Shown here piece by piece: positions 19,446-28,741 of a stretch of 40,060 nt of DNA. Below the pieces are notes generated by a model. That model worked only from the letters and a program-made list of their open reading frames with translations. It was not told where the DNA came from and did not search any database. The translations under genes and the position numbers were made by a program. Within the stretch, counting starts at the first letter, position 1; each line of letters opens with the position of its first letter. This stretch comes from an uncultured Planctomycetia bacterium (GTDB lineage Bacteria > Planctomycetota > Phycisphaerae > FEN-1346 > JAACEH01): NCBI GenBank assembly GCA_903929765.1, contig CAIYVX010000006.1:1-40060 (forward strand), written 5' to 3'.

Positions 19446-19661
19446 CTACGACCCCTTCCGCGAATCAGCCACGACCAAGGCCACGCCGGCGGCCAGGGCC
19501 AACCCGCCCGCGATGGCCGGTATCGGCAGCGTCTTCTCGACTGGCTGGGTAACCTTGAGGTCGCCGATTTGTAACTTCGTCTCGCGGGTCGTGTACGTAA
19601 CGCCTTGGAAGATCAGCCCCGCCAGACCCAGAACAATCAGTACTATTCCTAGCATTTTCAT
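19446..19661 (-). CDS. small two-TM membrane protein (DUF3185-like)
   Basis: A 71-aa protein starting at ATG 19661 (AAAGGAG upstream). TM1 is MLGIVLIVLGLAGLIFQGV and TM2 is PAIAGGLALAAGVALVVAD. Between them is YTTRETKLQIGDLKVTQPVE, a pattern shared by many small bacterial membrane proteins annotated as DUF3185 or unnamed. Its start codon overlaps the stop of the CsrA-like gene (ATGA), so the two are translationally coupled. The function is unknown. Confidence 0.72.
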   Translation of the reverse strand: MKMLGIVLIVLGLAGLIFQGVTYTTRETKLQIGDLKVTQPVEKTLPIPAIAGGLALAAGVALVVADSRKGS

Positions 19662-19888
19662 TGTGTACTCCTTTCCAAACTCGTCAGGGCTTCGCCATGG
19701 CGCCGGGCGGCTCGGCCGTGGCCGCAGGTTTGCGGACAGACCCGCCAGCCCTGAGCCCGGCTGCTCTCGTAGCCCAGCTTGACGCTCTGACCTTTGATCC
19801 CCAGCACCGTGACCTTTAGCCGGCACTCACTGCCGCTCTGACATCGGACGGTCACGGATTCCTGCACTTTCTTCGATACGGACAACAT
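19658..19888 (-). CDS. divergent CsrA-like protein
   Basis: A 76-aa protein starting at ATG 19888 with GGAGG seven bases upstream. Residues 1-45 follow the CsrA/RsmA pattern: MLSVSKKVQESVTV aligns with MLVLSRKxGESIxI, and LKVTVLGIKGQSVKLGYES aligns with IxVTVLxVxGxxVRLGIxA. Changes at RNA-contact positions (RK to KK, VRLGI to VKLGY) and a three-residue insertion with Cys make it a remote member. The C-terminal 30 residues are new and contain CPQTC. CsrA proteins bind GGA motifs in mRNA leaders. Whether this one does is open. Its presence beside structured leaders is suggestive. Confidence 0.55.
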   Translation of the reverse strand: MLSVSKKVQESVTVRCQSGSECRLKVTVLGIKGQSVKLGYESSRAQGWRVCPQTCGHGRAARRHGEALTSLERSTQ

Positions 19889-20989: not shown

Positions 20990-21442
20990 TTACTTAATAG
21001 TCGCCGCCTCATCTTGTTTTTCCTTCGCCGCCACGGCCGGACCAGGGCCATGCCAATCTTCCTGGGAGATGTTTTGCGCCAGCAGGAACACCTGCACCAT
21101 CGTCCCGTTCGTGAAAGCATGCACCACCGTTCCCGTCGTCGGCTCGACTTCTGCGGTGGACTCGCGGACCTCCACCCCGGTGATTCTCGAAATTTCCTTT
21201 CGCAGCGCCTCCGAAGACGTGGCGAAAAGCTGGCGGTGGAACTCCTGAATCTGGGCCGCCCCGGCGGGGCTTTGGGCCAGGGCCTTCTCGGCCGGCGTCA
21301 AGGCCTCGTGCATCGTGACCACCAGCGTATCCCCGCTCAGAACCACCGTCACCACGTTCGACACGCGGCCCGTCAGGTTCATCTGGAACTCGTTGGCCGC
21401 TTTGGCGATTTGCTGGGCCATCGTGGGTTGGAGTTTATCCAT
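20990..21442 (-). CDS. DUF2294-family protein
   Basis: A 150-aa protein starting at ATG 21442 (MDKLQPTMAQQIAKAANEFQ). The DUF2294 pattern is visible: an N-terminal helix, GDTLVVTMHEALTPAEKALA, and FHRQLFATSSEALRKEISRI followed by TGVEVRESTAEVEPTTGTVV. It is a distant paralogue of the two DUF2294 genes at 25243 and 28361 and carries a longer C-terminal tail. It is the first gene behind leader copy 1, whose terminator-like hairpin ends about 31 bases before this start, so expression likely depends on read-through. The molecular role is unknown. Confidence 0.82.
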   Translation of the reverse strand: MDKLQPTMAQQIAKAANEFQMNLTGRVSNVVTVVLSGDTLVVTMHEALTPAEKALAQSPAGAAQIQEFHRQLFATSSEALRKEISRITGVEVRESTAEVEPTTGTVVHAFTNGTMVQVFLLAQNISQEDWHGPGPAVAAKEKQDEAATIK

Positions 21443-21473: not shown

Positions 21474-21637
21474 TAAAAAAAGCCGACGCGGCCGAACACT
21501 TCTTCGTGTTCAACCACGTCGGCTTACTCGTCAACGGGCCTCCCGCTGCTCCGGGCTGCCCCTTATCTAGTCATCCGACACCGCACGTCACTTTTTACTC
21601 GGAGCCTGCTCACTCGACCTGCCGGCTCCCTCTCACT
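21474..21637 (-). ncRNA. conserved structured leader, copy 1 (upstream of DUF2294 and small-gene run)
   Basis: Predicted 5' untranslated RNA from the conserved promoter to a U-tract. It contains a hairpin GGAGCC/GGCTCC (21601-21629), the near-invariant core GTCGGATGACTAGATAAGG continuing to GGCAGCCCGG (21551-21579), a CCCG/CGGG stem-loop, and the long hairpin described separately. Essentially the same arrangement appears in two other leaders of this window. Its promoter and 5' part overlap the 3' end of the MauE/DUF1573 gene. The RNA class is not one I recognise. Confidence 0.7.
21475..21523 (-). terminator. terminator-like hairpin of leader copy 1
   Basis: Arms 21506-21523 and 21482-21499 (GCCGACGTGGTTGAACAC on the - strand pairing with GTGTTCGGCCGCGTCGGC, two or three G-U), then seven U. 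The 18-bp stem plus U-tract fits an intrinsic terminator lying before, not after, the gene. Confidence 0.7.
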
Positions 21638-23160
21638 TCTGTAAGTATCCGCCCAGAACCGTCTGATAGCAAGCTAATTCTAGATAAATATAAATTTCCT
21701 GATTCCCAGGCCGCCGGCGCCGCGTGGACCTCCGCCCGCAAGGTCAGCAGAATCGGCCCGGCGTCTTTCACCGCCACCAGCAGCCGGCCCTTGTACGGCC
21801 CCGCAGCCTGGGGCGCCCGATAGCCGATCAGCAGCCGCCCCGTGCCCCCGGGCGCAATGACCTGGGTTTCCGGCCGGGCATGCAGACAGGCGCACTCGCT
21901 CCGCACCCCGCTCACCCGCAGCGGCTCGGACCCGCGGTTATGCAACTCAAAATAGACCGCATGAACACTCCCGCCGGCCACCTTGCCGAAACTGTGGACA
22001 CCCAGGCTTCCGGTGATGCCGACCACCGGCACGTCCTTGCCTGGCTGGACACGTGAGAACCAGGAATCGTCGTCCTTCGCCGTCTCGCTGCAATACCAGT
22101 ACAGGCCGGCGCGACCGATCTCCGTCCCGCCCTGGCCGAGCTTCGGTTCGGTGGCGCTGATCGCGCGTCTGGCCTGCTCGATCGCCTCGAACCCGGCTTT
22201 CTGTTCGGCAAAAAGCACGCGGCCGTCACGCAGGGCCACCACCACCGGCGTGTCCACAAACCAGTCATGCGCCGCACTGAGCCGGCCGTTGTGCACACCG
22301 GGAATGGCCGCGACCGCCGGAACGCCCCCGTCCTTGACAAAGGGCGGCATCTCGATGGCTGCCAGCGGCGGATCGCCCGCTCCCGGCGGGTGCTGCCGCA
22401 CCTGGTCGCGCAGCTTCGCCAAGAGCACCTGGCAATGTTCGCAGTCGTGATGGTAGAGCACGGCGATCCAGCAACCCTGCATGACCGGCTGGTCGAGCGT
22501 CACATAGGAACTCAGCGGAAACGGCTGGCCGAGCCATTCGTTCGGATTGAGAACCACCAGGCGATCCTGTTGCCCGACGTCGGCATTTTCCAGCACCCCC
22601 GCCGGCGCGTCGTTGCGGACGCAGCCCACCGCGGAGAGGGTGCCGACCAGGGCGACGCACAGCCCGGCCGCGACCACCCGCTTCACCCGCCACTGCCCAC
22701 GGATCTCCGCGATCCAGTGCGGGTGCAGCACTAATAGCAGGGTCAGAATCGTCGCATCGAGGCAGAGCGTGATCCACGGGTTGACCTGGATCCGCCCGAA
22801 GCAGCCGCACGACTGGGCGCCGCTCAAGGCCCGGAAAAACGTCACCGCCAGGAACCCGCAGAACGTCCCCGTCACCGCCAGCCAGGCCGCCCGCTTGAAG
22901 ACATTGCTCAGCAGCCAGGCCGCCAGAACAAACTCCCATTCCACCACCACCAGGATCAGCCAGCGGTTCTGAAACACGTCGCCCGGGGCCAGCGTGTGCG
23001 AGGCCAGTTCCTGAGCTTTCAGAAAGGCCGAGGTCAACAGGATCGCCGAAATCGCCAGGGCCAGGCCGCGACGAAGCCACGGCATTCCCGCCCAGTGCTG
23101 GTAGAAATCCCAGAGCCCCCGCGACCCGCTTTCGGGAAGTTGCCTGCTGATTGGTTGCAT
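21610..23160 (-). CDS. three-domain fusion: MauE/DoxX-like membrane domain, thioredoxin-like domain, DUF1573
   Basis: A 516-aa protein. Residues ~28-165 form a MauE/DoxX-type bundle of about four to five TM helices with SCGCFGRIQVNPW, the conserved Cys-rich loop of MauE-like redox proteins. A second TM (~185) precedes an extracytoplasmic region with HHDCEHCQVLLAKLRDQV, a thioredoxin-like CxxC. The C-terminal ~100 residues (YFELHNRGSEPLRVSGVRSE then CACL and IAPGGTGRLLIGYRA) are a DUF1573 domain. The whole looks like an envelope redox protein. GGAGG precedes the ATG. The last ~20 codons overlap the promoter of leader copy 1, and the extreme C-terminus after the DUF1573 fold is probably not conserved. 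Confidence 0.82.
   Translation of the reverse strand: MQPISRQLPESGSRGLWDFYQHWAGMPWLRRGLALAISAILLTSAFLKAQELASHTLAPGDVFQNRWLILVVVEWEFVLAAWLLSNVFKRAAWLAVTGTFCGFLAVTFFRALSGAQSCGCFGRIQVNPWITLCLDATILTLLLVLHPHWIAEIRGQWRVKRVVAAGLCVALVGTLSAVGCVRNDAPAGVLENADVGQQDRLVVLNPNEWLGQPFPLSSYVTLDQPVMQGCWIAVLYHHDCEHCQVLLAKLRDQVRQHPPGAGDPPLAAIEMPPFVKDGGVPAVAAIPGVHNGRLSAAHDWFVDTPVVVALRDGRVLFAEQKAGFEAIEQARRAISATEPKLGQGGTEIGRAGLYWYCSETAKDDDSWFSRVQPGKDVPVVGITGSLGVHSFGKVAGGSVHAVYFELHNRGSEPLRVSGVRSECACLHARPETQVIAPGGTGRLLIGYRAPQAAGPYKGRLLVAVKDAGPILLTLRAEVHAAPAAWESGNLYLSRISLLSDGSGRILTEVRGSRQVE
21644..21672 (-). promoter_or_regulatory. conserved promoter of leader copy 1
   Basis: -35 TTGCTA (21667-21672), exactly 17 bp, -10 GATACT (21644-21649) on the - strand. 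Same spacing and flanks as in the other two leaders. Confidence 0.7.
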
Positions 23161-23193
23161 GGCCGGCCTCCTTCGGGTGCTGCAAAACAGTTG

Positions 23194-23577
23194 TTATTCC
23201 GTCCCATCCAGGCTGATCAGGACGAAACGCTCGGTGTCTCCGGCCATGTTGACGGTCTTTGAGGTCGAAAGCTCGCCCAGCTTCACCGTGACGACGTAGT
23301 TGCCGCCCGCCAACCCCAGGGCCTTGAAAACGCCGGTGCCATCCGTCAAACCCTGCCGATAGTGCGCCGGGTCCTGCCCGGCCCCCTGGATCGTCACCGT
23401 AGCCACTGGAACCGGCTGCCCGGCCCCGTTGGTCACCGAAACCATCATGCTCGACGGCGCCGTTGGCGGCGGCGGATCGCCCCAGACCACCCAGTTGCCG
23501 ACCAAGAAGGCCGCGACCGCCACCACGGCCAGGCCCAGGAAGTGAACCACCCATTTTTTCTTTCGCAGTTTTTTCAC
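23194..23577 (-). CDS. membrane-anchored protein with carboxypeptidase-regulatory-like domain
   Basis: A 127-aa protein starting at GTG 23577 (MKKLRKKKWVVHF), a strongly basic head followed by one TM (FLGLAVVAVAAFLVGNWVVW). The outer part is a single CarboxypepD_reg-like beta-sandwich: SMMVSVTNGAGQPVPVATVT, DGTGVFKALGLAGGNYVVTV, FVLISL. The frame is open further upstream into the leader hairpin, but that would translate the leader, and the GTG has a GAGGG ribosome site. It is the first gene behind leader copy 2, followed by the MauE fusion gene 33 bp later, so the two form an operon. Confidence 0.72.
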   Translation of the reverse strand: MKKLRKKKWVVHFLGLAVVAVAAFLVGNWVVWGDPPPPTAPSSMMVSVTNGAGQPVPVATVTIQGAGQDPAHYRQGLTDGTGVFKALGLAGGNYVVTVKLGELSTSKTVNMAGDTERFVLISLDGTE

Positions 23578-23608
23578 CGGCGTGCCCTCGACTGGTGCGG
23601 CCTGGATC

Positions 23609-23658
23609 AAAAAAAATACCGATGCAGCCGAACACCTCCAGGTGTTCCACCGCATCGG
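23609..23658 (-). terminator. terminator-like hairpin of leader copy 2
   Basis: Arms 23641-23658 and 23619-23636 (CCGATGCGGTGGAACACC with GGTGTTCGGCTGCATCGG on the - strand), then A and eight U after one base pair of spacer. Two positions differ from copies 1 and 3 in both arms at once, keeping the pairing. Confidence 0.7.
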
Positions 23659-23771
23659 CATACTCGGCAACGGGCCTCCCGGTGCCGCTGGGCTGCCCCT
23701 TATCTAGTCATCCGACAACTCACGTCACTTTTTCTCGCGGAGCCGGCTCAACCCCGAGCCTCCCTGCTCCT
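23609..23771 (-). ncRNA. conserved structured leader, copy 2 (upstream of the CarboxypepD_reg/MauE operon)
   Basis: About 163 nt from predicted start to U-tract, the same length as copies 1 and 3. The core GTCGGATGACTAGATAAGG to GGCAGCCC is at 23688-23716. The 5' hairpin is rebuilt as nested GGCTC/GAGCC and GGAG/CTCC stems. AAAAAGTGACGTGA precedes the core as in copy 1. It ends in the long hairpin and eight U, 32 bases before the GTG start. Confidence 0.7.
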
Positions 23772-23777
23772 GATGGT

Positions 23778-23806
23778 ATTATTCGCCCGGAACAGTTCAA
23801 TAGCAA
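23778..23806 (-). promoter_or_regulatory. conserved promoter of leader copy 2
   Basis: -35 TTGCTA (23801-23806), 17 bp, -10 AATAAT (23778-23783) on the - strand. The upstream AATTCTC is shared with copy 3. The -35 lies inside an imperfect inverted repeat (TTCAATA...TATTGAA) that could be an operator. Confidence 0.7.
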
Positions 23807-23855
23807 GAGAATTATTGAATTGTTAAAGTGAATTGTTCCCGACTCTTCCCCGTGG

Positions 23856-23899
23856 CACGGGCCTCTTGCCCGTGAGTCCCAGGGGCATCTTGCCCCTGG
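23856..23899. repeat. two tandem REP-like hairpins
   Basis: CACGGGCCTCTTGCCCGTG (23856-23874) and CCAGGGGCATCTTGCCCCTG plus G (23879-23899), each a near-perfect hairpin with a TCTT loop. They lie between the SDR gene end and the leader 2 promoter and may end SDR transcription. Confidence 0.7.
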
Positions 23900-23922
23900 T
23901 TTGGCCGTTTTTCTACGGGCGG

Positions 23923-25011
23923 TTAAGCCGCGCGCGGCTCGCGCCAATGGCGCGAACGCGCAAATTGCAGCAGGCGGTCGAAAAACGGCAGGTCCAGAAC
24001 CGGGGTTCCGGGCCGCTCCTCGCCCAGCACGGTATCCGTGTTGGTGCGGTCAAACTGCGGTTCACCCAGGCCATACGAAAGGTAGGTCTCGCCCGCCGCC
24101 AGGATCAGACGTTCCAGGTCCGTCGCCGGATGCCGGCCAAAATCCCGTTCATCGACCATCCGCAGCCCGTTCAAACCGAACAACTCGGCGAAAATGTCGC
24201 GCAGCCGCGCGAACGACATCGGCTCCGGGTTGGTCACGTGGTAGACGCCCCCCTGGCCGCTCTCGATCAGGCGCCAGGCCGTTTGGGCGAAATAATCCAC
24301 CGGGATAAAGTTCTTGGTCGCCGCAGGATTGACCGGGACCCGCAACTCGCTGCCCTGGACATGGGCGGCAATCAGGTCGAAGGCCCGCATGATCGGGTAC
24401 AGCGTGTTAAAGCCGACCTTGTGCCCGTTGGTCGAGTCGCCCAGCACGATGCTCGGCCGCAGGATCGTCACCGCTTGCCCGGTCTTTTCCCGCCAGTCCT
24501 CGACCAGGGCTTCGCCGTGGGCCTTGCTTTGTTCGTAGGCGTTGTTGAACTCCCGGTGCGGGTCCAGGTCGCCCTCGCGAGCCACGCCGGTACAGCGCCC
24601 CGCCACGTAGGCCGTGCTGACGTGAACCACCGCCAGGTCAAGCTCCTCGGCCAACTGGAGGGCGTGGCGCGTGCCCTCGACGTTGATCCGCTGGAGGCGG
24701 GCCGGTTCGGCGTCAAACTCCGTGCATCCCGCACAATGAATCAGCCGGTGGGCCGTCCGCAGGGAGGAGCGCTGGCCATTGAGCCCGAAGCCCTCCTGCT
24801 CGATGTCGCCCAGGACGATGTCCACCTGAGCGGCCAACTCCGGCAGCCCGACCGTCTCCAGAACGGCTTCCACCCGGCGCCGCGCCACCGCCTGATCGCC
24901 GCCGCGCATCAGGGCGGCAATCCGGTGGCCGCGCCGCAACGCCTCGCCGGCCAGCCAGGCGCCGACCGAGCCGGTAATGCCCGTCAGGAGAATGGTCTCA
25001 TGATCTTGCAT
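23923..25011 (-). CDS. NAD(P)-dependent extended SDR / thioester-reductase-like protein
   Basis: A 362-aa NAD-binding_4 family protein. The nucleotide-binding motif is TGITGSVG (residues 10-17). HCAG in LIHCAGCTEFDAEP matches the fatty acyl-CoA reductase/thioester reductase group. STAYVAG and the catalytic YxxxK in NNAYEQSKAHGEAL are both present. The substrate-side segment RPSIVLGDSTNGHKVGFNTL is also typical. Such enzymes reduce acyl-CoA or acyl-carrier thioesters to aldehydes or modify sugars and lipids. The start at ATG 25011 gives the motif at the usual distance. Transcribed divergently from the DUF2294 gene. The substrate is unknown. Confidence 0.85.
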   Translation of the reverse strand: MQDHETILLTGITGSVGAWLAGEALRRGHRIAALMRGGDQAVARRRVEAVLETVGLPELAAQVDIVLGDIEQEGFGLNGQRSSLRTAHRLIHCAGCTEFDAEPARLQRINVEGTRHALQLAEELDLAVVHVSTAYVAGRCTGVAREGDLDPHREFNNAYEQSKAHGEALVEDWREKTGQAVTILRPSIVLGDSTNGHKVGFNTLYPIMRAFDLIAAHVQGSELRVPVNPAATKNFIPVDYFAQTAWRLIESGQGGVYHVTNPEPMSFARLRDIFAELFGLNGLRMVDERDFGRHPATDLERLILAAGETYLSYGLGEPQFDRTNTDTVLGEERPGTPVLDLPFFDRLLQFARSRHWREPRAA

Positions 25012-25145
25012 GGAAACTCTGATTAACCTGGCTCTCGCCCGATCTTCACTTGCCCGTAAGAATACCCTATGGAGCGTAAATTAGCAACCTCCGGCGAAAA
25101 ACGAAATATCAAGCTATTCTATATTTTTTTTGGATTCCTCCGGGC

Positions 25146-25174
25146 TTGAACCGTTACCCGTTACTGGCTAGTAT
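25146..25174 (+). promoter_or_regulatory. sigma-70-type promoter of DUF2294 copy A
   Basis: -35 TTGAAC (25146-25151), 17 bp, -10 TAGTAT (25169-25174), 69 bases before the ATG, in an AT-rich divergent spacer. Confidence 0.65.
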
Positions 25175-25242
25175 GGCTTCAGGTGCCAGGCCCTGCGGTG
25201 TCGCGGCCCGCGTCCGGCAAATCAGACCAGTGTGAGAGCGTC

Positions 25243-25623
25243 ATGAAAACACAGGGCGAAATCGAAGCCGCCGTCTGCGAAGGCATCAGCCGCTTTGAGC
25301 AGAACTACATGGGCCGCGGCCCCAAGGACATCCACGCCCATCTGCTCGGCGACCTGCTCGTCGTCCGGCTCCGGGGCGTCCTGACCGCGGCCGAACAGCA
25401 ACTGGTCAAAGCCCTGGCCGGCGACAAGGGCCGCGATCTGCTCAAACAGGTCCGCACCCATCTGATCGAGACCGCCCGGCCCACCCTGGAAGCCCTGATC
25501 CACGAGGCCACCGGCGTCAAGTCCGTCAGCCTCCATCACGACATCAGCACCTCCACCGGCGAAGAGGTCATGGTCTTCACCCTGGCGGTCGCCCCGCTCT
25601 TCCGCGAAACCAAAAAGTCCTGA
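25243..25623 (+). CDS. DUF2294-family protein, copy A
   Basis: A 126-aa single-domain DUF2294 protein: EAAVCEGISRFEQNYMGRGP, then DIHAHLLGDLLVVRLRGVLT, then LIETARPTLEALIHEATGVK, then an ending strand MVFTLAVAP. It differs from copy B (28361-28741) by about 15 of 381 bases and only two residues (S/V and V/A), so the protein is under purifying selection or the genes are kept alike by gene conversion. The frame is open to 25183 but the ATG at 25243 matches copy B exactly. Copies A and B bracket the Kai operon. The function is unknown. Confidence 0.85.
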   Translation: MKTQGEIEAAVCEGISRFEQNYMGRGPKDIHAHLLGDLLVVRLRGVLTAAEQQLVKALAGDKGRDLLKQVRTHLIETARPTLEALIHEATGVKSVSLHHDISTSTGEEVMVFTLAVAPLFRETKKS

Positions 25624-25653
25624 TAAACAAGATAAAATGTTTCAATAATTCTC

Positions 25654-25682
25654 TTGCTTTCGGACGCTTTATGACGCATAAT
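25654..25682 (+). promoter_or_regulatory. conserved promoter of leader copy 3
   Basis: -35 TTGCTT (25654-25659), 17 bp, -10 CATAAT (25677-25682), preceded by TTCAATAATTCTC as in copy 2. Confidence 0.7.
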
Positions 25683-25688
25683 AGCAGA

Positions 25689-25847
25689 GCAATTGGAGCC
25701 GACCGGCAGAGCAGGCTTCAAGAGAACTGTGACGTTCGCTGTCGGATGACTAGATAAGGGGCAGCCCGGACGCTTCGGGAGACCCGTTACAGAGTAAGCC
25801 GACGTGGTTGAACACCTGGGGGTGTTCGGCCACGTCGGTTTCTTTTT
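25689..25847 (+). ncRNA. conserved structured leader, copy 3 (upstream of kaiC-kaiB-PAS)
   Basis: About 159 nt. The 5' hairpin GGAGCC/GGCTTC (25695-25719) has one G-U replacing a pair seen in copy 1. GTGACG (25730-25735 region) can pair with CGTTAC before the terminator stem. The core GTCGGATGACTAGATAAGG to GGCAGCCCGG lies at 25741-25769, with a CCCG/CGGG hairpin at its 3' side. The leader ends with the long hairpin and U-rich tract, 49 bases before the kaiC ATG. It does not match any riboswitch class I know. Confidence 0.72.
25799..25847 (+). terminator. terminator-like hairpin of leader copy 3
   Basis: Arms CCGACGTGGTTGAACACC (25799-25816) and GGTGTTCGGCCACGTCGG (25821-25838): 18 pairs, two of them G-U in RNA, a four-base loop and the T-rich tract TTTCTTTTT. 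Confidence 0.75.
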
Positions 25848-25895: not shown

Positions 25896-27362
25896 ATGCA
25901 CGTCAGGGGTCGCCCCATTGCGAAAGTGCCTACCCAGGTTTCCGGTTTGGATGAGGTGTTGGAGGGCGGCCTGCCGCGCGGCCGGACGACCCTGGTCAGT
26001 GGCGGGCCAGGCTCCGGGAAGACGGTGCTCGGTCTGCAATTCTTATGTGCCGGGGCGCTGGCGGGTGAGCCGGGCGTCTTCGTGACACTGGAAGAGCGGG
26101 CCGAGGTCGTCCGCCAGAACGCCCTGTCCATGGGCTGGAACCTGGCGGCCCTGGAAAAGGCCGGCAGGGTGGCTATCGTCGAGGCCCGGTTGTTTGGGGA
26201 AGAAGTCACGGCCGGCGATTTCGACATTCAAGGCCTGCTGGCGATTGTGGGTGGACAGATCAAGAGGATCCGGGCGCGGCGGGTGGTGATGGATGCGCTG
26301 GATGTCCTGCTGCGGGTTTTCAACGACCCGCAACGCGAGCGCAACGAATTGTATCGCCTTCACGAGTGGCTGATGAACCGGGGGTTGACGAACCTGGTGA
26401 CCGCCAAGGCCCAGCGGGGCGGGGAAACGGTTTCGCAATACGAGTTTCTGGACTTCATGGCGGATTGCGTCCTCCGCCTCGACCATCGCGTCATCGGCCA
26501 GGTGGCGACGCGCCGCTTGCGGGTGATCAAGTATCGCGGCTCTGGTTTTGGAACCAATGAGTATCCCTACGTCATCGGCACCCACGGCATCGTGCTCTTC
26601 CCGCTGACCAGGGCGGGTCTGGCCCACCAACCGCTGGGAGAGAAGGTCTCCTCGGGCTTGACCGGACTCGACATCATGCTCGACGGCGGCTATCGCCGCG
26701 CCTCGTGCATCCTGGTGACGGGCACCAGCGGCACCGGCAAGACCACCTTGACGAGTACGTTCGTCCAGGCGGCCTGCCGGCGCGGCGAGAGGGTGCTCTC
26801 CCTGAGTTTTGAGGAATCCCGTGAGGCCATCGTCCACGCCATGCTCAGCGCCGGGATTGACCTGCGCCCCGCCCTGCGGGCTCGCCGGCTCATGATCCAA
26901 ACCGGCCTGCCGGAAGCCATGGGTTCGGATGACCATTTGATCCGGGCCCTGGAGGCCATCGACTCCTTCAAGCCGGACCACGTGACCCTCGACGCCATTT
27001 CCGCCTGCGTCCGCATGGGCTCCGAACAGGCCGCCTTCGACTACCTGATGCGGCTGGTCTGTATCCTCAAGGAGCGCGGCATTTCCTGCATCCTGACCAA
27101 CCAGATCAGCGGCATGGTGGGCACGGATGAGGAACTCAGCGGCATTGGTTTTTCCTCGGTGGTGGACGCGGTCATTCAACTGCGTTTCGTCGAGAAGGAC
27201 CAGGAGATCACCCGCGAGATCCTCGTCATCAAGTCGAGAGGCTCGGCACACTCCAATCGGCGGCAAACTTTTGTGATTACGGACCATGGCATCGAATTCC
27301 CCGACGACCCGCTACCGCCACCGTCTCGGAAGCGGCCTGCCGGTCGCCAGGGCGGTGAATAA
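25896..27362 (+). CDS. kaiC: KaiC-family double-domain ATPase
   Basis: A 488-aa RecA-like protein with two KaiC domains. CI has Walker A GGPGSGKT (36-43) and catalytic Glu pair in FVTLEE (66-67). CII has Walker A GTSGTGKT (276-283) and the Glu pair in LSFEE (306-307). Cyanobacterial KaiC autophosphorylates at adjacent Ser431-Thr432. The aligned place in GIGFSSVVDAVIQL holds Ser420-Ser421, so a phosphorylation cycle is possible, as in other bacterial KaiC proteins. A ribosome site AAAGGA lies eight bases before the ATG. The stop overlaps the kaiB start (TAATG). No KaiA is visible, so any rhythm or timer would lack KaiA control. A stress-signalling role is the common finding outside cyanobacteria. 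Confidence 0.92.
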   Translation: MHVRGRPIAKVPTQVSGLDEVLEGGLPRGRTTLVSGGPGSGKTVLGLQFLCAGALAGEPGVFVTLEERAEVVRQNALSMGWNLAALEKAGRVAIVEARLFGEEVTAGDFDIQGLLAIVGGQIKRIRARRVVMDALDVLLRVFNDPQRERNELYRLHEWLMNRGLTNLVTAKAQRGGETVSQYEFLDFMADCVLRLDHRVIGQVATRRLRVIKYRGSGFGTNEYPYVIGTHGIVLFPLTRAGLAHQPLGEKVSSGLTGLDIMLDGGYRRASCILVTGTSGTGKTTLTSTFVQAACRRGERVLSLSFEESREAIVHAMLSAGIDLRPALRARRLMIQTGLPEAMGSDDHLIRALEAIDSFKPDHVTLDAISACVRMGSEQAAFDYLMRLVCILKERGISCILTNQISGMVGTDEELSGIGFSSVVDAVIQLRFVEKDQEITREILVIKSRGSAHSNRRQTFVITDHGIEFPDDPLPPPSRKRPAGRQGGE

Positions 27363-27688
27363 TGAGCCAGAACCCAAGAACCAAGCTCGGTCGAAAAAAA
27401 GGAACGCGCGACCACTACCTGCTCCGGCTTTTTGTGGTCGGCCTGGGGCCGAATTCCAAACTGGCCCTGTCCAACCTGCAGAGCCTTTGCTGCGAACACC
27501 TGGAAGGCCGCTACACGATTGAAGTTATTGACGTGGTAAAAAACTACCAGGCCGCGGCCCGGGACAACATCCTGATCACGCCGGCGCTGGTCCTGGTTAC
27601 GCCACTTCCCAGAGTGGTAGTTCTGGGCAACCTGAGCGATCGGCAGAGGGTTCTCTTTGCCCTGCGGCTGTCGGGAGGCGACCCATGA
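27362..27688 (+). CDS. kaiB: KaiB-family thioredoxin-fold protein
   Basis: A 108-aa protein aligning with KaiB over its whole length: YLLRLFVVGLGPNSKLALSN, then GRYTIEVIDVVKNYQAAARD, then ILITPALVLVTPLPR and the C-terminal LGNLSDRQRVLFALRL. The DxxxNxxxAxxDxIxxTPxL block is the KaiB signature. KaiB binds the KaiC hexamer and, in cyanobacteria, switches fold. It has a 15-residue basic N-terminal extension. It overlaps kaiC by TAATG and the PAS gene by ATGA, so all three are translationally coupled. Confidence 0.92.
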   Translation: MSQNPRTKLGRKKGTRDHYLLRLFVVGLGPNSKLALSNLQSLCCEHLEGRYTIEVIDVVKNYQAAARDNILITPALVLVTPLPRVVVLGNLSDRQRVLFALRLSGGDP

Positions 27689-28293
27689 GCAAACGCCGGC
27701 CCACTTATCGGGAACTCGAAGAGCGGTTGGCTGTGGCCGAGCCTATCGTCGAAGCGCTCAAGCACCACGAAGTGGATGCGGTCGTGGGTGAGGGGAAAAT
27801 CACCTTCCTGCTGCTCCGAAAGGTCGAGGAGGCCCTGGTCAGCAGCGAAGCAGGATTTCGTACGATGTTCGACCTTTCCGGCGTCGGGCTGGTGCAAGCC
27901 GATACTCCGGCCCTCCGCTTCACCAGGGTCAACCGGAAGTTCTGCGAGATCATTGGGTATTCGGGCGAAGAATTGCTGGCCAAAACCTACCTGGACCTGA
28001 CCTCTCCTCTGGATCGCCACCAGGATATGAAAGCGCTGGCGCTAGTGCTCCGTGGCAAGACCGACTCCTGGTCCCTGGAGAAACGTTGCCTCCGCAAAGA
28101 CGGTAGCGTCGTCTGGGTGGAGGTTAACGGGGCGGTCCTGCGGGATGAAGACGGCCGAGCCGTCAGGATCATGGCGATGTTCATTGACCTCACGGCCCGT
28201 AAACAGGCCGAGCAGTTGCTACATGATAAGTCTTCAACAGAACAGGGCCGGCCGATGCGGCGCAAGAAGACGGCCGTCAAGAAAACCCGGTAA
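27685..28293 (+). CDS. PAS-domain protein without kinase domain
   Basis: A 202-aa soluble protein. An N-terminal helix pair (RELEERLAVAEPIVEALKHH, then EVDAVVGEG) resembles linkers of KaiBC-associated sensor kinases. One PAS/PAC domain follows (FRTMFDLSGVGLVQADTPAL, NRKFCEIIGYSGEELLAKTY, RCLRKDGSVVWVEVNGAVLR, AMFIDLTARKQAEQLL). Where related proteins continue into a histidine kinase, this one ends in a basic tail (RRKKTAVKKTR). It may therefore be a sensor or adaptor for KaiC/KaiB, working by binding. The ligand is unknown. Its start overlaps kaiB by ATGA. Confidence 0.85.
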   Translation: MSKRRPTYRELEERLAVAEPIVEALKHHEVDAVVGEGKITFLLLRKVEEALVSSEAGFRTMFDLSGVGLVQADTPALRFTRVNRKFCEIIGYSGEELLAKTYLDLTSPLDRHQDMKALALVLRGKTDSWSLEKRCLRKDGSVVWVEVNGAVLRDEDGRAVRIMAMFIDLTARKQAEQLLHDKSSTEQGRPMRRKKTAVKKTR

Positions 28294-28360
28294 GCAGCCG
28301 GCTTGAGTTGCCGCTGCGGCGAGGGCCGCGGCCAGAAAAACAGGTCGGTGCGAGAGCGTT

Positions 28361-28741
28361 ATGAAAACACAGGGTGAAATCGAAGCCGCCGTCTGCGAAG
28401 GCATCAGCCGCTTTGAGCAGAACTACATGGGCCGCGGCCCCAAGGACATCCACGCCCACCTGCTCGGCGACCTGCTCGTCGTCCGGCTCCGGGGCGTCCT
28501 GACCGCGGCCGAACAGCAACTGGTCAAAGCCCTGGCCGGCGACAAGGGTCGCGACCTGCTCAAACAGGTCCGCACCCATCTGATCGAGACCGCCCGGCCC
28601 ACCCTGGAGGCCCTGATTCACGAGGCCACGGGCGTCAAAGTCGTCAGCCTCCATCACGACATCAGCACCTCCACCGGCGAAGAGGTCATGGTCTTTACCC
28701 TGGCCGCCGCCCCGCTCTTCCGCGAAACGAAGAAGTCCTGA
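28361..28741 (+). CDS. DUF2294-family protein, copy B
   Basis: 126 aa, nearly identical to copy A before the Kai operon. The match begins a few bases before the ATG (GAGAGCGT) and ends at the stop. Flanks differ, so the duplicated unit is essentially the gene itself. It lies 67 bp after the PAS gene and may be the fourth gene of the Kai operon. Most differences from copy A are synonymous. Confidence 0.85.
   Translation: MKTQGEIEAAVCEGISRFEQNYMGRGPKDIHAHLLGDLLVVRLRGVLTAAEQQLVKALAGDKGRDLLKQVRTHLIETARPTLEALIHEATGVKVVSLHHDISTSTGEEVMVFTLAAAPLFRETKKS

Follow-up and report, generated by a model that had tools for sequence, protein, structure and literature searches.

A family of candidate transcription attenuator RNAs ahead of stress operons in Planctomycetota

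Leaders and neighbouring genes in the window

A stretch of 40,060 nucleotides (nt) from contig CAIYVX010000006.1 of an uncultured Planctomycetia bacterium (GenBank assembly GCA_903929765.1), here called the window, carries three structured leader RNAs, each in front of an operon: leader A (21474–21637, minus strand), leader B (23609–23771, minus) and leader C (25689–25847, plus). A preliminary description of this DNA, made from the letters alone, had placed three leaders here and we find all three at the same coordinates and on the same strands, with a common promoter, a 5′ hairpin, a near-identical core and an intrinsic terminator. The core was said to be the same in all three, and the 27-mer GTCGGATGACTRGATAAGGGGCAGCCC indeed occurs three times with zero mismatch; it gave no match in 100 dinucleotide shuffles of the window even with up to three mismatches allowed. 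Inspection of the sequence likewise bore out the promoter-like sequences and 5′ hairpins ahead of all three cores (promoter consensus TTGCTW, 17-nt spacer, NATAMT), as well as long terminator hairpins with U-tracts. In leader A the promoter (TTGCTA-N17-GATACT, 21644–21672, minus; recognized from its sequence and from the family-wide enrichment given below) is followed by a 5′ hairpin (21601–21630, from sequence), by a core (21518–21579) in which GUCGGAUGACU (21569–21579) is predicted from covariation and folding to pair with AGUAAGCCGAC (21518–21528) in an antiterminator hairpin, and by a terminator with U-tract predicted by folding (21475–21525), AAGCCGAC being common to terminator and antiterminator. 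Leader B has the same order on the same strand, with a promoter (TTGCTA-N17-AATAAT, 23778–23806) and 5′ hairpin (23739–23764) seen in the sequence, a core (23654–23716; covariation, folding) pairing GUCGGAUGACU (23706–23716) with AGUAUGCCGAU (23654–23664), and a terminator with U-tract (23609–23661; folding). Leader C, on the plus strand, has its promoter (TTGCTT-N17-CATAAT, from sequence) at 25654–25682, its 5′ hairpin (sequence, folding) at 25695–25719, its core (covariation, folding) at 25741–25803, with GUCGGAUGACU (25741–25751) facing AGUAAGCCGAC (25793–25803), and its terminator with U-tract (folding) at 25796–25847. The count of three copies stands for the window and not for the genome, which carries five: two more lie on contig C105, each 5′ of a small-protein gene. 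GTGACG, which had been listed among the shared parts, does not belong to the conserved core and is not seen outside this genome; conservation extends from GUCGG as far as the U-tract, and the precise 5′ portion is, like GTGACG, common to the own-genome copies only.

The first gene of operon A is mpsC-L, a DUF2294 paralogue (20990–21442, minus; PF10057, E = 2.2e-21) that starts about 32 nt past the terminator; the operon also encodes DUF3309 and a CsrA-like protein (19658–19888, minus; PF02599 at E = 7e-4, below the cut-off). Operon B had been described as MauE/DUF1573, which is right for its second gene (21610–23160, minus; domain match), the first being a CarboxypepD_reg-like secreted protein (23194–23577, minus; Pfam-type domain match). 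The MauE-DUF1573 reading frame spans promoter A, and the start of leader A accordingly falls inside that gene or right at its end. Leader C lies just 3′ of mpsC-H (DUF2294; 25243–25623, plus; PF10057, E = 1.8e-36), a candidate trans-acting partner discussed below, and precedes a kaiC-kaiB-PAS operon (25896–28293, plus; KaiC, KaiB and PAS domain matches). A second mpsC-H (28361–28741, plus; PF10057, E = 6.3e-38) reflects a recent duplication that flanks kaiC-kaiB-PAS, seen as a 300-nt direct repeat of 94% identity (25195–25494 and 28313–28612, plus); no leader lies 3′ of this second copy.

Distribution of the family

The covariance model used for searching (R1) was made from ten sequences (five from the own genome, three from another genome in its order and one each from Phycisphaerales and Isosphaeraceae) and was deliberately built without the P1 (GUCGG/CCGAC) and P3 (UAA/UUA) pairs of the core, so that those pairs are not biased by the model. 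A search of planctomycetes with it recovered homologues well beyond the own genome. Matches with E < 1e-6 were found in 63 of the 397 genomes of the class, many with at least five copies; these copy numbers are lower bounds, no more than nine candidates being scored per genome. The family extends to other planctomycete classes, where one complete genome of 7.3 Mb has eight copies or more, and the Isosphaeraceae genome contains it as well. In 249 Pseudomonadota genomes nothing convincing was seen (the best match, at 7.7e-4, covered the terminator only), and neither the leader core nor MpsC-H was found in the viral contigs searched. The family alignment comprises 127 copies; promoter and downstream-gene counts are over 129.

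The idea that this is a new class agrees with the outcome of a search with the Rfam 15 covariance models, which gave no match above the gathering cut-off in the window or in L013, L016 and L017 and only chance-level matches at a relaxed threshold. Nothing relevant was found in the literature on the leader sequence, on planctomycete attenuation or riboswitch motifs, or on DUF2294. Rhodopirellula-1 is, according to Weinberg 2010 (PMC2864571), a candidate RNA found in Planctomycetes and also in Proteobacteria, marked as probably cis-regulatory and given there with no Rfam accession; we compare it with the leader by description and not by alignment, and its listing from Proteobacteria differs from the unconvincing R1 result in Pseudomonadota. 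With Rhodopirellula-1 considered to that extent, the leader represents a well-supported and probably undescribed family of planctomycete attenuator RNAs.

Two mutually exclusive structures

The preliminary description did not notice the pairing between the core and the 5′ arm of the terminator, and it is this pairing that makes the element a switch. GUCGGAUGACU pairs with AGUAAGCCGAC to give one long imperfect hairpin with conserved purine–purine loops, while AAGCCGAC doubles as the terminator 5′ arm and the terminator 3′ arm repeats GUCGG. From its base upwards the antiterminator consists (A4 numbering) of P1 (8–12/67–71, GUCGG/CCGAC), an internal loop with A13-N-G15 opposite A64-A-G66, a stem at 16–18/61–63 (ACU/AGU) followed by a purine-rich loop, a stem at 23–25/55–57 (URA/UUR) followed by an A26–G54 mismatch, an inner stem at 27–30/50–53 (GGGC/GCCC), A31 facing G49 and R32 opposite position 48, and a further inner stem at 33–36/44–47 (CCCG/CGGG). 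Across the 127 copies 17 of the 21 antiterminator pairs show double-sided changes, and the number of double-sided cells (115) compares with 32.6 in shuffles and was reached by none of 500 shuffles. Antiterminator cells are paired in 90.8% of cases, and sliding the partner by 1–3 columns lowers this to 23–47% (at most 46.6%). Pairs outside R1 covary too, for example 24/56 (AU 62, GU 42, GC 13), and when the sequences were aligned by MAFFT with no structural information, 15 predicted pairs ranked among the first 30 of 5778 column pairs (4 in the antiterminator, 11 in the terminator). The 5′ hairpins are moderately supported across the family (mean energy −19.2 versus −15.7 when shuffled).

The sequence ATG-ACN-NNN-TRA can be read in the core of many copies, and ribosome-mediated attenuation through a tiny open reading frame (AUG ACU AGA UGA/UAA) might be proposed on that account. 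We find this scarcely credible and regard a leader peptide as largely refuted, since roughly one copy in four has C, A or G in place of the U of the AUG (column 14), and columns 23 and 24 follow base pairing instead.

When leader C is cut short ahead of the 3′ arm of its terminator it is predicted to fold as the antiterminator, and complete leader C as the terminator. The same holds across the family, where 124/127 truncated transcripts form the P1+P2 antiterminator and 125/127 complete ones the terminator; the two structures are mutually exclusive, conserved and each supported by covariation. The mean predicted energies are −29.0 kcal/mol for the antiterminator and −33.5 kcal/mol for the terminator, and the terminator would therefore be the default, with an effector needed to hold the antiterminator.

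Position relative to promoters and genes

Promoters resembling TTGCTT-N16/17-TATAAT concentrate 71–100 nt 5′ of the model start (93/129 copies versus 23 in shuffles), and a Shine–Dalgarno sequence with start codon follows 30–100 nt 3′ of the leader in 60/127 copies against 9.4 expected. Where copies are neighbours (60 cases) 38 are tandem, 19 divergent and only 3 convergent, the convergent ones being more than 4.6 kb apart. The homologues thus sit systematically 5′ of genes and are not placed at random, the distribution that the preliminary description had named as speaking for a dispersed repeat. A dispersed or mobile repeat with no regulatory role would account for several clustered copies per genome and for the recent mpsC-H duplication beside a leader, but would not be expected to show this orientation and spacing relative to genes, covariation across classes or conserved promoters; it is disfavoured by the orientation and spacing especially and we consider it very improbable. 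Another possibility is that the leaders act in trans as independent small RNAs, each with a promoter and terminator of its own, and just happen to be located close to stress genes. An own promoter, a strong terminator and the distance of several hundred nucleotides from some copies to the next obvious gene would suit such RNAs, which we nevertheless hold to be unlikely, as gene starts cluster 30–100 nt downstream, MpsC-L is always downstream on the same strand, convergent neighbours are almost absent and a small RNA has no need of a conserved antiterminator that shares a terminator arm.

The first downstream genes are, by Pfam, most often MpsC/DUF2294 (26/129, MpsC-L being the commonest target), then KaiC (6), OmpA/collagen (6), ice-binding (5), DUF1571 (4), sigma-70 (4) and BON (3), so that the suggestion of a stress regulon, first made for the window, extends to the family. 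The four leaders ahead of genes for sigma-70 family members (Pfam domains r2 and r4) hint at a possible sigma-factor cascade fed by the attenuator.

An intrinsic terminator between promoter and gene, together with a mutually exclusive antiterminator, is in line with the attenuation proposed in the preliminary description, and we conclude from these sequence comparisons that the leader is probably a cis-acting transcription attenuator of stress operons. Weighing against this are the 33/127 copies for which the Shine–Dalgarno rule finds no clear start of a gene within 400 nt, a few of which could be free RNAs, and P1, whose covariation is weak owing to near-invariance (for example GC 126/127, CG 123/127). 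The latter may reflect a double constraint on the P1 3′ strand, which has to pair both with the 5′ arm of P1 and with the identical 3′ arm of the terminator; support for P1 comes from the fold, the overlap with the terminator and the covarying stem above it. In the proposed mechanism the leader of each stress operon would be transcribed from its own sigma70-type promoter and the nascent RNA would fold first as the antiterminator (GUCGG-AUG-ACU ... AGU-AAG-CCGAC, containing GGGC/GCCC and CCCG/CGGG as inner stems). Over a further ~45 nt of synthesis the hairpin of the terminator would nucleate at its loop and, by kinetics that we infer, displace the lower antiterminator stem by capturing AAGCCGAC, with termination some 30–60 nt ahead of the start codon. 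Were the antiterminator held by a factor, about 5–7 unpaired nucleotides would separate the shortened terminator hairpin from the U-tract and transcription would read through; stabilization of the antiterminator would thus probably be the ON state.

Candidate factors

Ribonucleic antiterminators (RATs) of the BglG/LicT type are imperfect hairpins with internal loops which, when stabilized by protein, exclude a terminator. The leader resembles them in this respect but is about twice as long and of different sequence. A BglG-type regulator was rejected, its CAT_RBD domain (PF03123) occurring in 0/35 genomes tested by a search that detected it in 4 control genomes. ANTAR-dependent attenuators (EutV, NasR) also show competition between antiterminator and terminator in the leaders of several operons (PMC3369931), as here, although the leader has no tandem pair of small hairpins; an ANTAR regulator was rejected too, the domain being present in just 1/15 carrier genomes.

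In crcB (fluoride) and pfl (ZTP), according to PMC2864571, the 3′ strand of the upstream domain is shared with the terminator 5′ arm and stabilization of the domain should prevent termination. The leader is like these ON riboswitches in that arrangement and in its place just before the gene, and unlike them in being a single imperfect hairpin instead of a more complex fold and in giving no covariance-model match. A classical riboswitch, in which a small molecule binds and stabilizes the antiterminator hairpin, would fit this overlap of the aptamer stem with the terminator, the invariant purines in the internal loops (A13, G15, A64, G66, A31, G49) and the use of a single element ahead of functionally diverse genes. 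Yet the core is a rod with neither junction nor pseudoknot, simpler than most metabolite aptamers, and targets such as MpsC-L, KaiC, OmpA, ice-binding and BON proteins suggest no common metabolite; moreover a candidate protein partner consistently adjoins the leader. We rank a riboswitch next after that partner, MpsC-H, and regard it as rather unlikely.

Genomic association favours a protein over a metabolite as effector. In a first set of genomes DUF2294/MpsC was present in 15/15 leader carriers and 1/20 others, and over the whole class it is found in 55/63 leader-positive and 22/334 leader-negative genomes (Fisher p = 1.7e-40, uncorrected for phylogeny). There are two paralogues, MpsC-H with FEQEYMGRGPKDI...SLHHDISTxTGEE and MpsC-L without the HHDISTxTGEE motif, and their positions differ. 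For MpsC-H a leader is present within 900 nt in 51/76 cases (the gene being divergent in 46, just upstream in 5 and downstream in none), and among the fetched loci 32 are divergent, 6 upstream and 1 otherwise placed. MpsC-L follows a leader in the same orientation in 40/47 cases, with no other arrangement, and in 34/34 of the fetched loci; in these the distance is mostly 33–84 nt, too little to accommodate a further promoter and leader. With MpsC-H beside the leader and MpsC-L downstream, the layout is the one expected where the gene for a regulator adjoins the gene that it controls. MpsC-H/DUF2294 is accordingly placed as the likeliest candidate, on a tentative basis, for the factor that may recognize the conserved A–G mismatched loops. 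Several points count against it: the co-occurrence figure is uncorrected for phylogeny; eight leader-positive genomes, several of them incomplete, have no detectable MpsC; and we know of no RNA-binding role for MpsC. Sequence and fold searches of the PDB with MpsC-H (predicted fold α-β2-α3-β2, pLDDT 84) gave nothing significant (best E 0.015), so that structure speaks neither for nor against RNA binding; weak uL23-like matches were discounted as evidence.

A CsrA-like protein might instead bind the single-stranded GGA of GUCGGAUGA and favour termination, and G11-G12-A13 is nearly invariant while divergent csrA-like genes are found 3′ of leaders in 11/12 cases among the fetched loci, often right after mpsC-L. 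A role of this kind for CsrA seems improbable, because CsrA as such does not track the leader (13/15 carriers versus 18/20 other genomes), conservation reaches far beyond GGA, and the csrA-like genes are small in number and resemble targets. The divergent CsrA-like proteins, usually encoded directly after mpsC-L, occur in two planctomycete classes (window 19658–19888, minus; L110, L116, L108, L087, L101, L133, L097 and L129) and could be feedback regulators. In genomes without the leader a different structured RNA ('type 2') lies just 3′ of mpsC (L142:1934–2171, plus; L143:1925–2162, plus; L146; L150; L144, minus; L148, minus; also L145 and L170), with its own promoter, a closing stem GGGC/GCCC, two hairpins, besides these a second imperfect hairpin (GUUGUUCGCGGUCC..GGAUGGCGGAACAAGAUAC), and a terminator. 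It shows compensatory change in 19/42 predicted pairs and has no match in Rfam; the shared short motifs GAUUGACAG and AAUAAGCCGG suggest possible kinship with the leader.

Implications

Our working proposal, which we hold with some reserve, is that MpsC-H may represent a new family of RNA-binding antiterminators that switches on a planctomycete general-stress regulon, MpsC-L being a target and possible antagonist. If true, this would be a new class of protein. DUF2294/MpsC ranges from Bacillus to planctomycetes and has received little study, and the leader opens its function to direct testing. The Planctomycetota, in which little RNA-based regulation has been described, gain with it a multi-copy family of probable attenuators that defines a stress regulon.

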